Below are positions 4,139 through 20,686 of a stretch of DNA of 29,772 nucleotides, one piece after another (the first letter of the stretch is position 1; each line of letters opens with the position of its first letter). The stretch covers positions 1 through 29,772 of IMG/VR virus record IMGVR_UViG_3300043436_001756; one strand, written 5' to 3'. The notes beneath the pieces were generated by a model. That model made no database searches and was not told where the DNA came from. It was given only the letters and a program-made list of their open reading frames with translations. Position numbers and translations under genes: made by a program. This DNA comes from a virus.

Positions 4139-5998
4139 ATGGCACAAGACATTGAAGTAAAAGTAAAAGTTGATACTGGTCAAGCCGTATCAGATGTGAA
4201 CAGATTAGGTGATGCTTTCAATAGTACTGCAAGTGATGCCCAAGATGCACAACAAGTATTTGCAAAATCTGGAAATGGTGTTCAAGTTGAACAATCAATT
4301 GCTGGATTGAAACAACTGAAAAGAGAACTGAAAAATGTTGCAGTTGGTTCAGAGGAATTCAAGAAGTTGTACAATGACATTGATGACCTTGAAGATAAAT
4401 TAAAATCAGCCAAAAATACATCATCAGATTGGGTTGATAGTTTGGAAAATGCTGGTGGTCCGTTGGGAATGGTTGGTGCTGGAATCAACAAAGTAAAGGT
4501 TGCAACACAAACTTTTGGTGGTGCTTTAAAAGCAACTGGTATTGGTTTGATTGTGGCATTGCTTGGTGGATTAGCAGCGTCATTCTCTGAAAATGAAGTT
4601 GCAATGAAAAAGATTCAACCATTGTTTGATGGGTTGAAGAAAATCACATTTGGAATTTTCAAAGCAGTTGAGCCATTGGTTGATGTGTTTTTAGATTTAG
4701 CAATGAAAGCATTGCCACACGTTACCAAAGCAGTTGGAATGGTGTACTCTGGAATGATGGCATACTTTACATTCTTGAAAGAAGCGGGTGGTGGAGCAAT
4801 TGAAATATTGGAGGGTGTGTTCACTTTGGATGGTGACAAAATAAGTGGTGGAATTGACAAAGTCAGTGGTTCATTTGGCAAAGCAACTGGTACTTTCAAA
4901 TCAAGTATGAAAGCATTTGGTGAGGGAACAAAGCAATTGACTGAATCTGAAAAAGAAGCAGCGGAAAAGCAAAAGGAATTACTTGAAAAGCAAGCAGAAG
5001 AAAGAAAGAAAAAAGAAGAAGAGGCAAGAAAAGAGAGAGAGAGAATAAAAAAGGAAAGGGAAGATTTCTTAAAATCAATTGCTGACCTTGAAAAAAAACA
5101 AGCAGAGGCAATCAGAGATGCTCAAGCAAAAACAGACCAAGAAAAACTTGACCTACAAGCACAGAGAGACCTTGAAGAAATTGAGGCATTAAGAAAAAAA
5201 GGTGCAAATGTTGAATTGTTGATGAAACAACACAATGAAAAGTACACCTTACTGGATGCCCAATTGCAAGAAAAACTTGCAAAGGAAAAAAAAGAAAAAG
5301 ATGATGAGGCAAAGAAGAAAGCAGAAGAAGATGCCAGAACTGCATTTGAGAAAGAGCAAGCGGATAAACTATTAAGAGTCCAGAATGACCTTGAAGTTGA
5401 AAATGTATCTTTTGAGAGACAAAGAGAATTGATAAATGAGAGAGAGCAAATCCTATTGTCTGATAAAAAATTGACAGACAACCAAAGAATTGCAATTCAC
5501 AAGCAAACTGCTGATGCTCAAACTAAAATTGATGAACTAAAAGCCAAAGCACAAGTTGATATGCTGAATGCAGTTAGTCAATCAATGAACATAGCAACAG
5601 AACTACTTGGTGAAAGTACGGTTGCTGGTAAAAGTTTGGCAGTTGCATCTGCATTAATCAACACATATTTGGGTATTTCTGCTGGTGTTAAACTAGGATA
5701 TCCACAAGCAATTCCAGCAGTTGCAATGGCAGCGTTAACTGGATTCAAGGCAGTGAAAAATATACTAGCAACAAAAGTTCCAGCAAAAGGTGGTGCTGGT
5801 TCTGGAGGTGGTGCTGGTTCTATGAGTACACCAGCAATGACTATGCCTAATCCAAATGTGATTGCTGGTTCTGGGGTGAATCAATTAGCATCTACATTAG
5901 GAAATCAACCACCAATTAAGACATACGTTGTGGCTGGGGATGTGACAAGTCAGCAAGGAATGGATAGGTCAATTGTAAAAGGTGCAACTATTGGATAG
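4139..5998 (+). CDS. Tail tape measure protein, 619 aa
   Basis: The tape measure sets tail length and is ejected during infection. Visible features: N-terminal helical region (about 1-100) with Ala/Lys/Glu-rich helices; hydrophobic segment about 133-149 (TGIGLIVALLGGLAASF); a very Lys/Glu-rich coiled coil about 265-480 ('EKQKELLEKQAEERKKKEEE'); a second hydrophobic stretch near 525-560 (Ala/Gly/Ile-rich); and a Gly/Ser-rich C-terminal part. This layout is classic for tape measures. At roughly 0.15 nm per residue the length implies a tail near 90 nm, an estimate from known scaling. It follows other tail genes and ends the tail block; a 205-bp spacer separates it from the protease. Confidence 0.88.
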   Translation: MAQDIEVKVKVDTGQAVSDVNRLGDAFNSTASDAQDAQQVFAKSGNGVQVEQSIAGLKQLKRELKNVAVGSEEFKKLYNDIDDLEDKLKSAKNTSSDWVDSLENAGGPLGMVGAGINKVKVATQTFGGALKATGIGLIVALLGGLAASFSENEVAMKKIQPLFDGLKKITFGIFKAVEPLVDVFLDLAMKALPHVTKAVGMVYSGMMAYFTFLKEAGGGAIEILEGVFTLDGDKISGGIDKVSGSFGKATGTFKSSMKAFGEGTKQLTESEKEAAEKQKELLEKQAEERKKKEEEARKERERIKKEREDFLKSIADLEKKQAEAIRDAQAKTDQEKLDLQAQRDLEEIEALRKKGANVELLMKQHNEKYTLLDAQLQEKLAKEKKEKDDEAKKKAEEDARTAFEKEQADKLLRVQNDLEVENVSFERQRELINEREQILLSDKKLTDNQRIAIHKQTADAQTKIDELKAKAQVDMLNAVSQSMNIATELLGESTVAGKSLAVASALINTYLGISAGVKLGYPQAIPAVAMAALTGFKAVKNILATKVPAKGGAGSGGGAGSMSTPAMTMPNPNVIAGSGVNQLASTLGNQPPIKTYVVAGDVTSQQGMDRSIVKGATIG

Positions 5999-6203
5999 AT
6001 AAAATCAATTGAAAAAAAAATTATGATTGATAAAAACTTGAATTGTAATAGTGTGATTTTATTGGGATTTTTCGGTAAATCAACAATCGTAAAATAAATG
6101 ATATAGGATATTACAAAACAACAAAATTGTTTAAAACGATTAAAAAAGACCTTTAACGGAATATTAATAAAAACAAAAAAACAAATAAATACGTTATACT
6201 GAT
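5999..6203. other. 205-bp non-coding spacer between tail and head modules
   Basis: No open frame of note. An imperfect hairpin with arms ATCAAT (near 6004) and ATTGAT (near 6027) follows the tape-measure stop but has no U tract, so terminator status is doubtful. The spacer becomes very A-rich and ends in the CGTTATA motif just before the protease ATG. It probably carries a transcription boundary. Confidence 0.5.
6192..6198 (+). promoter_or_regulatory. CGTTATA motif before protease gene (candidate late promoter)
   Basis: CGTTATA ends five bases before the ATG at 6204, after a long A-rich tract. The same heptamer with the same five-base spacing and the same NNGATATGAA continuation occurs before the gene at 9240, and further copies precede genes at 7029 and 29156. 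If TTATA acts as a -10-like box, the transcript would be nearly leaderless. The promoter role is inferred. Confidence 0.5.
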
Positions 6204-16242: not shown

Positions 16243-16272
16243 ACCCTATCAGAAATGATGGGGTTTTTTTTT
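16243..16272 (+). terminator. Rho-independent terminator after ninG
   Basis: ACCCTATCA pairs with TGATGGGGT (nine pairs, one G-U) capped by a GAAA tetraloop and followed by nine T residues. It closes the NinG-like unit 60 bases after its stop and insulates the early promoter that follows. Confidence 0.92.
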
Positions 16273-16329
16273 GCTTAAAATTTTATCAAATATTTTTTCA
16301 TAAAAATGATTATATTAAAAATATGTTTA

Positions 16330-16337
16330 TATATTTG
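16330..16337 (+). promoter_or_regulatory. Bacteroidota-type promoter (-7 box TATATTTG) for the early region
   Basis: TATATTTG matches the Bacteroidota -7 consensus TAnnTTTG in the gap after a strong terminator. A clear TTG/TTTG -33 box at 19-21 bases upstream is not seen, only T-rich sequence, so the match is partial. Transcription would start near 16344 and give a leader of about 250 bases before the first ATG at 16597. Host RNA polymerase would therefore read the early genes. Confidence 0.65.
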
Positions 16338-16340
16338 TGA

Positions 16341-16482
16341 ACCGAAAGTGGAGAACACCACTCATTAAATCGGACTTCCATCTTCCTAGTGATGGATATC
16401 GAGACAACAGAGAATAAGTTGCGGAGGTCAAAAAAGACCATAAAATTGGGTGTAGTTACTCTGGCTTTAAAACCGAAACTAC
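16341..16482 (+). ncRNA. Structured 5' leader RNA with competing stems
   Basis: Untranslated leader with several pairings: CCGA/TCGG (16342/16370) enclosing AGTGG/CCACT (16347/16358); TCCATC/GATGGA (16377/16391); GGTC/GACC (16426/16436) around six A; GTAGTT/AACTAC (16452/16477). A seven-pair alternative, GACTTCC (16373) with GGAGGTC (16423), cannot coexist with the second and third hairpins. This is a switch-like or pseudoknotted layout. No known riboswitch class is recognised. The hammerhead just downstream would release this segment as a separate RNA. Confidence 0.55.
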
Positions 16483-16532
16483 GATACTTACAGAAAGGCA
16501 GTTATATTTTGGCTAAATAGTAAAAGGTCGTT

Positions 16533-16582
16533 GTGTCCAAGTTTGAATGAACTTGCTGATGAGCCACAGATTGGCGAAACAC
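16533..16582 (+). ncRNA. Hammerhead ribozyme, type III topology
   Basis: All core positions are present. Stem III strand GTG (16533-16535), then U-C at the cleavage site (cut after C16537). Stem I is CAAGTT/AACTTG (16538-16543/16550-16555, six perfect pairs, six-base loop). The CTGATGA box is 16556-16562. Stem II is GCCA/TGGC (16563-16566/16572-16575) with a five-base loop, followed by GAAA 16576-16579 and CAC 16580-16582 closing stem III. Stem III is short: three pairs plus the conserved A-U. Self-cleavage would leave a 59-nt leader on the gene at 16597. An upstream in-frame ATG at 16531 would read through the ribozyme and is not a real start. Confidence 0.9.
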
Positions 16583-16599
16583 TAAAACAAATCAAAATG
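16580..16599 (+). promoter_or_regulatory. Recurrent A-rich leader element (first of about nine copies)
   Basis: CACTAAAACAAATCAAAATG ends in the start codon. Close copies end in the ATGs at 16782 (identical 20 bases), 17306, 17611, 18576, 19462, 20707 and 24574; a shorter form precedes 17033. No Shine-Dalgarno is present; A-rich leaders are how Bacteroidota usually start translation. Here the first three bases also form a strand of ribozyme stem III, so ribozyme and translation signal are fused. Confidence 0.8.
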
Positions 16600-16758
16600 A
16601 TAACTTTAAAAGTAACAACACATAAAGGAACAGAAGTTGAAAATGTTATGTTTGAATTTACTGCTAAAACTAAAAAAGAAGTTAATGCAGAATTTGTAAA
16701 AAGACAAGGTTGGATGTATAAAGATAAAAACAGAACATACGAATACATTAAAAAATAA
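16597..16758 (+). CDS. Small early protein, 53 aa
   Basis: First gene of the early transcript. Start is the ATG in the A-rich leader; the upstream extension crosses the hammerhead. The protein (MITLKVTTHKGTEVENVMFE...) is basic with a beta-type N-terminus, a helix ('TKKEVNAEFVKRQGWM') and a Lys-rich end. No family recognised. First genes of early transcripts often act on host functions, but nothing in this sequence says so. Confidence 0.7.
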   Translation: MITLKVTTHKGTEVENVMFEFTAKTKKEVNAEFVKRQGWMYKDKNRTYEYIKK

Positions 16759-16764
16759 TTAAAC

Positions 16765-16784
16765 CACTAAAACAAATCAAAATG
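16765..16784 (+). promoter_or_regulatory. Recurrent A-rich leader element, identical copy
   Basis: Identical over 20 bases to the element at 16580, ending in the ATG at 16782, but with no ribozyme attached: no CTGATGA box occurs in the short gap after the previous stop. It shows the leader exists independently of the ribozymes. Confidence 0.8.
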
Positions 16785-17021
16785 AATTATCCAATTGACA
16801 ACTTAATAAAATTTAACAATATCAAATATAAATGGTCATCTTTCTGGGGAAATCCTTGTGTTTGGAATACAGATACAGATGAATGGGTGATGCAAATTGA
16901 AGATGGTAGAATATACTTTAATTCATTTGCAGAGTTGAATATGTATCCAACAACTAAAATCTACACAGATTTAGATGAGGCAAAAATTGTATGTGCTTGT
17001 ATTATTAATTCTCACTTTTAA
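16782..17021 (+). CDS. Hypothetical early protein, 79 aa
   Basis: Not recognised. A soluble, Trp/Tyr/Asn-rich acidic protein with 'YKWSSFWGNPCVWNTDTDEWVMQIEDGRIYFNS', giving a beta-sheet impression, and a C-terminal helix ending 'EAKIVCACIINSHF'. It begins in a perfect copy of the early leader element and ends 11 bases before the next ATG. Confidence 0.68.
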   Translation: MNYPIDNLIKFNNIKYKWSSFWGNPCVWNTDTDEWVMQIEDGRIYFNSFAELNMYPTTKIYTDLDEAKIVCACIINSHF

Positions 17022-17032
17022 AACAAAATCAA

Positions 17033-17233
17033 ATGAAAGTATTAGTTTCTGTAACAGAAGTTCTCACCTACAAAATTGAAAAAGAAGTTGAGATGACAAA
17101 AAAAGATTATTTGCACTATGTTAAAACTGGAAAATACAATCCAGAGATTGAACACCAAGTCACATCAGATATTGATGCTGAACATTGGGTAGAAACAAAA
17201 TCTTGGATTGATGACATTGAAGAAGTACAATAA
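17033..17233 (+). CDS. Hypothetical early protein, 66 aa
   Basis: Not recognised. Starts MKVLVSVTEVLTYKIEKEVEMTK; acidic, with a likely beta strand then a helix, and 'DAEHWVETKSWIDDIEEVQ' at the end. Preceded by AAAACAAAATCAAATG, a shortened form of the recurrent leader. Its stop lies seven bases before the second hammerhead ribozyme, so cleavage there would free the 3' end of this message. Confidence 0.66.
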   Translation: MKVLVSVTEVLTYKIEKEVEMTKKDYLHYVKTGKYNPEIEHQVTSDIDAEHWVETKSWIDDIEEVQ

Positions 17234-17239
17234 ATTAAA

Positions 17240-17289
17240 GATTAACTGATGAGGATTTATTATCCGAAATGCCGTGAGGCATCTTAATC
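17240..17289 (+). ncRNA. Hammerhead ribozyme, type I topology
   Basis: All core elements are present. Stem I is GATTAA/TTAATC (17240-17245/17284-17289, six perfect pairs). The CTGATGA box is 17246-17252. Stem II is GGAT/ATCC (17253-17256/17262-17265) with a five-base loop. GAAA is 17266-17269. Stem III is TGCC/GGCA (17270-17273/17278-17281) capped by a GTGA (GNRA) tetraloop. U-C follows at 17282-17283, with cleavage expected after C17283. The 3' product would begin at 17284 and keep a 22-nt leader before the ATG at 17306. It lies in the gap between two small genes, so cutting would separate them into different messages with 2',3'-cyclic-phosphate and 5'-OH ends. Confidence 0.95.
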
Positions 17290-17305
17290 ACTAAAACAAA
17301 ACAAA

Positions 17306-17587
17306 ATGAGAACTATTAATTTAACCTTGCCAAAATTAACAAAACAAGAAAAAGAAAATGTGCAATCTATGACAATCTGGAAAGCATATCAAAAAGAACT
17401 TTCTAATGCAGAAAATATGAAAACCATATATGAGAAATGCAAAATAGCAATATCAAATGGTGTAAATATTGAACAAGCAATGTCTGGTAAAATCTATTTT
17501 TATAATGAGGCAATTGAAAGTTGGAACAAGGCACAAAAACTATTGGTAGATTTCAATGAATTTGAATCTAATAGAAAATACAAATAA
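17306..17587 (+). CDS. Hypothetical early protein, 93 aa
   Basis: Not recognised. Mostly helical and Lys/Glu-rich ('LTKQEKENVQSMTIWKAYQK', 'ENMKTIYEKCKIAISNG', 'FYNEAIESWNKAQKLLVD'), with no membrane segment. It is translated from the message released by the type I hammerhead and starts in the recurrent A-rich leader. Followed at 24 bases by the next leader-borne gene. Confidence 0.68.
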   Translation: MRTINLTLPKLTKQEKENVQSMTIWKAYQKELSNAENMKTIYEKCKIAISNGVNIEQAMSGKIYFYNEAIESWNKAQKLLVDFNEFESNRKYK

Positions 17588-17610: not shown

Positions 17611-18459
17611 ATGACAACAGAAATCACAAGATATGCATATGTATCACAAGGTCAGCAATCAAAAATGTACACATTATGGGTTGACCATTTGAATGGTTCA
17701 GAATTTGTAAAACCCAGATATGTGAAAAACCTATCAACCAACAAGGACAAAGCATTGGAAATGGGAATGCTTTATGCATCCAATTGTAATATTCAATTTT
17801 TTGATGATTCAATGGATGAGTTGAGAAAAATAAAAAGAATCCACAAATGGACAGATACAATGGTTCGCTTTGGAAAGAACTATGGAACAGAGTTGAGAGA
17901 TTGTGAACCAAAGTTTATTGTATGGATTGCAAAAGGTTCACCATTGAAAAATGAGCATTCTGGTGAATGGTCAAACAATTATTTTGGTGGTCAAGAATTC
18001 TGTGAAATAGCACAAGAAATTGCAGTTGAAATGGGTCTAGGAAAAATTGAGAATAGGTTAAATAATAATTCTTGGTTTGTCACAAATGAAAAGTATGACC
18101 AGACAACTGAATTGTTGAAGAAAAAAGCAGAGGAAAAGAATGACCATCATTACACAAATGGTCAGAGATTGGAACTTACTTTGACATTTTTGAAAAGAAC
18201 TGGTTATGAATCTGATTATGGGTTTATAAACATATACAATTTTCAAGATGCATATAAAAACATTTTTACATACAAAGGAACAAGCCATCCATTTTACAAA
18301 TATGTTCAATGGAATGAAATTGTTGATGGGGTAGAACATAGTGGAAGAGACATCTTGGATTTAGAAATAAATGATACCATCACATTTACTGCAACCATTA
18401 AGCATTCAGAATACAAAGGACAAAAACAGACATTCATTCAAAGAATCAAAATCAAATAA
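17611..18459 (+). CDS. Hypothetical protein with OB-like C-terminal segment, 282 aa
   Basis: The largest unknown of the early cluster. The N-terminal 200 residues have no motif I know ('YVSQGQQSKMYTLWVDHLNGSEFVKPRYV', Trp- and Lys-rich). The C-terminal segment 'INDTITFTATIKHSEYKGQKQTFIQRIK' matches a short beta motif (GD-V-FTATVK-H-EYKG-KQT-L-R) that often ends phage and bacterial DNA-associated proteins and looks like the last strands of an OB fold. Nucleic-acid binding is therefore possible. It starts in a recurrent A-rich leader (17594-17613). Confidence 0.65.
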   Translation: MTTEITRYAYVSQGQQSKMYTLWVDHLNGSEFVKPRYVKNLSTNKDKALEMGMLYASNCNIQFFDDSMDELRKIKRIHKWTDTMVRFGKNYGTELRDCEPKFIVWIAKGSPLKNEHSGEWSNNYFGGQEFCEIAQEIAVEMGLGKIENRLNNNSWFVTNEKYDQTTELLKKKAEEKNDHHYTNGQRLELTLTFLKRTGYESDYGFINIYNFQDAYKNIFTYKGTSHPFYKYVQWNEIVDGVEHSGRDILDLEINDTITFTATIKHSEYKGQKQTFIQRIKIK

Positions 18460-18461
18460 CT

Positions 18462-18557
18462 ATGAAACCAATCAAATATTTTTTCAGTTACCAGAGACCA
18501 CAAATCATTGCTGGTCTTATTATAGCACTTTATTTTTTAACCAGATTTTTTTATTAA
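18462..18557 (+). CDS. Tiny membrane protein, 31 aa
   Basis: A 31-residue protein (MKPIKYFFSYQRPQIIAGLI...) with one hydrophobic segment at about 15-26 (IIAGLIIALYFL) after a basic N-terminus, so a single membrane helix is likely. It starts two bases after the previous stop and fills the gap before the next leader. Small phage membrane peptides of this type can affect host envelope functions, but none is indicated here. Confidence 0.45.
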   Translation: MKPIKYFFSYQRPQIIAGLIIALYFLTRFFY

Positions 18558-18575
18558 TCACAAATCACTAAAACA

Positions 18576-18803
18576 ATGAAAAACAAAATTGATTTTTTAT
18601 GCAAACAAGATTTAGAAATGAATCACTTTTTTAATATTGCAATTGCAAAAACCTATGTCAGAATACTTGGTGACTGGACTCAAGATGCAGAAGATTATCT
18701 AATTTCAAAAGGATTTATCAAAAATGATTTTCTATATGAAAATGATGATACCAAATATGAAATGGAGTTGGGTTGTTTATATGTAATTTTATTCAAGGAC
18801 TAA
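18576..18803 (+). CDS. Hypothetical early protein, 75 aa
   Basis: Not recognised. Starts MKNKIDFLCKQDLEMNHFFN; acidic and largely helical, with 'DWTQDAEDYLISKGFIKNDF'. Preceded by a short form of the recurrent leader (CACTAAAACAATG). Its stop TAATG overlaps the ATG of the zinc-ribbon-like gene by one base. Confidence 0.66.
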   Translation: MKNKIDFLCKQDLEMNHFFNIAIAKTYVRILGDWTQDAEDYLISKGFIKNDFLYENDDTKYEMELGCLYVILFKD

Positions 18804-20655: not shown

Positions 20656-20686
20656 GGGTGATGTGTAGTGCATCACCCATTTTTTT
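20656..20686 (+). terminator. Rho-independent terminator inside the early region
   Basis: GGGTGATG and CATCACCC form an eight-pair stem with a seven-base loop followed by ATTTTTTT. It lies just after the SSB-like gene; the recurrent A-rich leader of the next gene begins in the tail of the T run. Either early transcription stops partially here or the hairpin works in RNA processing, because no promoter is evident before the next gene. Confidence 0.8.

Follow-up and report, generated by a model that had tools for sequence, protein, structure and literature searches.

What might a self-cleaving RNA do between two early genes of a phage? The question is raised by a viral stretch of 29,772 nucleotides (IMG/VR record IMGVR_UViG_3300043436_001756, hereafter the window), in which a first-pass annotation made from the sequence alone had placed a type I hammerhead ribozyme, with no part lacking and every stem perfect, at 17240-17289. 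Hammerheads of phages and prophages, including clusters that flank genes, were described in 2011; in the available text of that study, type I copies occupy intergenic positions, commonly as arrays, and their presumed role is to divide long phage transcripts into short mRNAs; for some arrays, cleavage was demonstrated both in vitro and in E. coli (Perreault et al., 2011; PMC3088659).

The motif at 17240-17289 (+ strand) reads GATTAA CTGATGA GGAT TTATT ATCC GAA ATGCC GTGA GGCAT C TTAATC, and both its coordinates and all the parts named by the annotation are borne out by sequence and fold. Stems I, II and III comprise 6, 4 and 5 bp with zero mismatches, stem I being open and stem III capped by a GUGA tetraloop, and the core is exact, with CUGAUGA, GAAA and a U-C cleavage site (C3 U G A N G A9, G12 A A, A15.1-U16.1, H17). 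The minimum free energy structure computed by ViennaRNA for 17230-17300 is exactly the hammerhead secondary structure. The motif begins 7 bases past the stop codon of the upstream gene (17231-17233), and cleavage, predicted after C17283 (17283/17284), would fall 50 bases past that stop, leaving 22 nt to the ATG at 17306. The 22-nt leader of the original annotation therefore stands, while its "seven bases past the coding block" describes the start of the motif and not the cut. By descriptor, fold, family covariance model and shuffles, this element is a new member of a known ribozyme class, and self-cleavage is predicted.

We then compared the motif with chance expectation. Among 31,397 dinucleotide-preserving shuffles of the window, none held a compact type I hammerhead with stems of at least 6/4/5 bp, in line with the early view that chance is a poor explanation; two held such stems when any loop length was allowed, and two held a comparable type III. 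The window itself holds one of each, 660 bases apart. A covariance model built from 52 other phage hammerheads, the window being excluded, scored the type I copy at 65.4 bits (E 2.9e-15), against 12.4 bits for the next best place in the window and 7.2 bits on its reverse strand.

The lack of a covariance-model hit, which the first-pass annotation had named as a refuting outcome, formally holds for Rfam RF00163 but not for the family model. Scanned against Rfam at gathering cut-offs, the window gave zero matches, permissive scans over the type I motif returned only snoRNA-like chance matches, and RF00163 (Hammerhead_1), searched directly, found nothing in the window at E up to 10, although its topology and core are those of the window copy. 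At its cut-off, RF00163 also found nothing in ten loci with several unmistakable hammerheads each, and in direct searches it scored relatives at 12-30 bits, all under the 34-bit cut-off, so that every relative tried fails. Because the model also misses or under-scores such unmistakable relatives, we attribute the silence of Rfam to model sensitivity. RAGATH-1 (RF03152) is also a type I hammerhead and matches one relative, L061, weakly (25.9 bits, E 0.046). Its stem II is nearly absent and it has an upstream hairpin, whereas the window copy has a four-pair stem II and no upstream hairpin; a search of the window with RF03152 gave no match, and the copy is not placed in RAGATH-1.

We further investigated how widespread the motif is by scanning viral contigs with the pattern TTAACTGATGA-n-GAAA-n-TCTTAA, which returned at least 120 stretches. 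Because this pattern derives from the core of the window copy itself, it partly presupposes the conserved inner letters of stem I. Of the 123 distinct pattern stretches listed, 77 had both stems II and III complete, compared with 0.72 expected when the interiors were shuffled. In total, at least 110 other type I copies were found across at least 64 viral loci, with as many as six in a single locus. Among the copies collected, stem I has 6 bp with few exceptions. Among the copies listed, an A flanks stem I on each side in 100 and 99 of 103, and loop II begins and ends with T in 81 of 92 pentaloops, 70 of which read TNANT. The window copy, with its 6-bp stem I, TTATT loop (UNANU) and a flanking A on both sides, agrees with its relatives in features that were not in the search pattern. 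The retention of the UNANU loop II and of the A's flanking stem I suggests, at the level of sequence, a contact. Across 52 relatives chosen by a pairing descriptor, 12 of 15 pairs showed changes on both sides and none was broken; the L020 copy shares the window's stem III, and in stems I and II four of its pairs differ from the window on both sides. Since these 52 were selected by descriptor, we relied more on the shuffled-interior count and on the leader-only search described below.

The placement of the copies is also regular. Among those listed, 90 of 107 lie between the stop codon of an open frame and a downstream ATG, compared with 4 of 107 when the opposite strand is read; the median distance to the downstream ATG is ~16 nt, and in most copies the upstream gene's stop codon overlaps stem I or the core or lies no more than ~10 nt away. 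Descriptor, fold and family model back the initial assignment of a type I hammerhead between early genes of one direction, as do dozens of phage relatives at the same stop/start junction. Host chromosomes rarely carry the motif (1 of 149 genomes of one family), and the whole genome collection searched yielded ten motif stretches. A separate observation concerns L139, a 5.8-kb contig filed as an Aliivibrio MAG, which holds eight type I hammerheads, about one per gene; this contig is probably a mis-binned phage.

Inspection of the sequence ahead of a gene-leader repeat revealed a second hammerhead, absent from the first-pass annotation, at 16533-16582 (+). It reads GTGTC-CAAGTT-TGAATG-AACTTG-CTGATGA-GCCA-CAGAT-TGGC-GAAACAC, with the core and all three helices present and stem III open, as in type III. 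RF00008 (Hammerhead_3) matches 16530-16585 from end to end with 40.3 bits (E 3.1e-9), below the gathering cut-off of 48.5, a match that cmscan with filters does not list, and it scores the type III of relative L150 at a similar 40.6 bits. Stem III has 4 bp, and energy alone does not give this open stem in the isolated region. By descriptor, the sub-threshold RF00008 match and alignment with relatives, 16533-16582 is a type III hammerhead ribozyme with self-cleavage predicted after C16537, ~60 nt ahead of the ATG at 16597. The two ribozymes are co-oriented (+) and flank three ORFs of the phage.

Directly 5' of the type III cleavage site lies a structured leader RNA (about 16340-16537, +), which has homologous counterparts with two covarying core helices. 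Its hairpins pair 16347-16351 with 16358-16362, 16378-16382 with 16391-16395, 16405-16408 with 16418-16421 and 16426-16429 with 16436-16439. Just upstream, TATATTTG at 16330-16337 (+) matches the Bacteroidota -7 box (TAnnTTTG) and is the probable promoter of the cassette. TTTG stands at the same place in most leader relatives. A scan of the window for sigma-70-type promoters found 22, with 27.9 expected. The upstream unit, which contains a NinG/Rap-like gene, is closed by an intrinsic terminator at 16243-16273 (+; 9-pair stem followed by a T run, -13.1 kcal/mol, z -4.7).

Two leader-pattern scans, with patterns free of any hammerhead letters, returned eight true relatives: L020 and L126, already known from the hammerhead search, and L129, L134 and L147-L150, found by the leader alone. 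Four other pattern matches (L130-L133) were rejected as chance matches inside other sequence, without hammerheads. In all ten loci (the eight relatives, the window and the Flavobacterium phage elemoB) a type III hammerhead lies 110-165 nt past the leader; a type I copy follows further downstream in eight of the ten, and the other two sequences stop 1.2 and 3.2 kb past the leader. The two core hairpins show both-side changes in 3 of 7 pairs and no broken pair in a small sample of eight sequences, and two further 5' hairpins covary by eye. A leader covariance model added one weaker instance in L061 (E 7.6e-9), where no type III motif was seen. The records then comprise 16340-16537 of the window, 4000-4187 of L136, the eight relatives and L061, with the consensus GAGAYNACAG..GTNRCGGARGTN..NACYATAA close behind the promoter box and a type III downstream in 10 of 11. 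Compared with Rfam, 16340-16537 matched no family. In RAGATH-1 the upstream hairpin is followed by UAUAAAAU and resembles the fourth hairpin of the leader; the leader hairpin AGTC..GACTATAAAAT (window 16405-16445; L136 4055-4100) likewise resembles the hairpin upstream of the RAGATH-1 model, a likeness that may be due to chance.

The segment between the ribozymes holds three small genes, all on the + strand: a 53-aa ORF (16597-16758), known from the sequence and the ORF list, and ORFs of 79 aa (16782-17021) and 66 aa (17033-17233, the last gene before the type I ribozyme), both without a family match. Past the type I cut come a 22-nt A-rich leader (17284-17305, +) holding the repeat AATCACTAAAACAAAAnnAAATG, a 93-aa gene without an assigned function (17306-17587, +) and a 282-aa gene of phrog_3628, a family of unknown function (17611-18459, +), with distant relatives in Cellulophaga phages. 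The repeat occurs six times (at 16577, 16762, 17286, 17591, 19442 and 20687, with up to 3 mismatches and 0 expected), directly before start codons, and is probably a translation-start element of this phage. It also precedes window genes that have no ribozyme, so the type I cut would expose a standard leader. Within the run of co-directional genes, a strong intrinsic terminator (20656-20685, +) is a possible end of the cassette transcript; it is directly followed by a copy of the repeat. Protein searches of viral contigs from the two genes flanking the type I copy gave one weak relative and none, and a search from the next gene (17611-18459) retrieved L127 and L128, both without a hammerhead.

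Several features point to the host. The window's TerL is near those of Flavobacterium and Bacteroides phages, and the window shares a gene with Cellulophaga phages and a large protein and a partly similar gene order with Nonlabens phages; the phage looks flavobacterial, and its probable hosts are Bacteroidota of marine or fresh waters. Against named phages, BLASTN with either the locus or the leader as query gave no match. The type I motif is carried by elemoA, elemoB and elemoC of Flavobacterium sp. BAL314 and by several Pelagibacter phages including HTVC019P. In the cultured elemoB (L136), the leader is followed by a type III (4188-4242), which immediately precedes the gene that opens the early run on its strand, and then by a type I (5997-6054). 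In HTVC019P, cultured on Candidatus Pelagibacter ubique, a type III and then a type I stand behind a different structured leader; this leader (L135, 830-1000) is strongly paired and has a terminator-like hairpin ahead of the type III. No hammerheads were found in Nonlabens phage P12024L, which is similar in gene content and gave only a weak leader-model match inside an annotated gene (18529-18594). Thus, the cassette is an optional, dispensable module. Neither hammerhead nor leader was found in Maribacter phage Panino (1-30000).

Altogether, we read this locus as an RNA-processing cassette of a Bacteroidota phage, in which a leader is followed by a type III and a type I ribozyme that would cut the early transcript, a reading to which we give a probability of roughly 0.85. 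Its sequence, structure, conservation, co-occurrence, position and orientation are observed. In the infected cell the ribozymes would cleave, and cutting would set mRNA ends and stability. Transcription would start just 5' of the structured leader, at about 16340. The type III would cut co-transcriptionally after 16537 and free a leader RNA of about 195 nt, and the type I would cut after 17283, so that the early transcript would end up as short mRNAs bearing 5'-OH ends. The middle product would be a 746-nt mRNA (16538-17283) with three small genes that begins with a 5'-OH and ends in a 2',3'-cyclic phosphate; it would keep a ribozyme fold at each end because the type III body stays on the 3' product of its cut and the type I body on the 5' product. 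The downstream mRNA would carry a 5'-OH and the 22-nt A-rich leader before its start codon. The cuts would probably let the transcripts escape 5'-monophosphate-dependent decay and allow the dosage of early genes to be set independently. Since stop codons lie near or inside stem I or the core, ribosomes at the stop would compete with folding and may couple cleavage to translation.

The reading that competes best with this one holds that the cassette mainly serves to free the leader, which would act in trans or as an antitermination RNA, and that the mRNA cuts are secondary. We regard it as possible, with the odds against it. The leader has conserved helices and loops, comes right after the promoter box and has a type III coupled to it in every one of the ten loci, and the strong terminator inside the gene run would give an antiterminator a target. 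However, it matches no known RNA, and type I copies are far commoner than the leader, which argues that cutting between genes has a use of its own. As a tentative extension, the leader could represent a new class of phage regulatory RNA, acting for example in antitermination or as a small RNA directed at the host, with the type III required for its release; release as a functional RNA may be the most interesting alternative.

It is unlikely that the ribozymes cleave to no purpose, as selfish or neutral remnants spread by phage recombination. The absence of ribozymes from some related phages and their rarity in host chromosomes would fit such a history, but core and pairing are kept despite strong sequence change, placement at stop/start junctions and orientation are strict, and the order of type III then type I recurs in distant phages. 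Slightly less likely again is that the RNA between the ribozymes is circularised or end-protected through ligation of its 5'-OH to the 2',3'-cyclic phosphate, as by RtcB. The predicted cut positions would leave both folds on the segment with the correct end chemistry, and circular products are an idea raised by Perreault et al. (2011; PMC3088659), who, in the available text, looked for them and for spliced products in other arrays without finding any. Chance resemblance, to which an AT-rich window lends itself and for which a loose hammerhead descriptor (three topologies, both strands) is satisfied ~0.13 times per shuffled window (about one in eight), is already refuted by the empty shuffles for an equally good motif, the covariance model, the relatives and the conserved cassette, and we give it practically no weight.

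Theta (HDV-like) ribozymes are another phage-encoded self-cleaving RNA for transcript processing; they have a different fold and lie next to phage tRNAs, whereas the hammerheads of the window lie between protein genes. The closer precedent is the clustered array of Perreault et al. (2011; PMC3088659), there at least two co-oriented hammerheads flanking phage genes, and the window holds such a pair. Core, stems and open stem I of its type I copy are as in that account, but the window differs in that a type III behind a conserved leader comes first and type I copies follow. The available text of that article makes no mention of Bacteroidota, Flavobacterium or pelagiphages. Our literature search, with thin coverage of subscription journals and preprints, found no paper describing a leader-III-I cassette; as far as that literature shows, the fixed layout, the leader RNA and the compact type I group missed by Rfam are new.

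What hammerheads do in phages has been an open question since 2011, and a fixed, recurring layout makes it directly testable. In this layout a leader RNA comes first, followed by a type III, a gene, a type I and another gene; it is shared by different phages, the cultured elemoB among them. Current Rfam models fail to pick up the compact type I hammerheads that form a common group in phages. The cassette also points to an undescribed structured RNA. If the leader is indeed a regulatory RNA of this kind, otherwise different Bacteroidota phages would have in common a dedicated "leader plus ribozymes" expression system.
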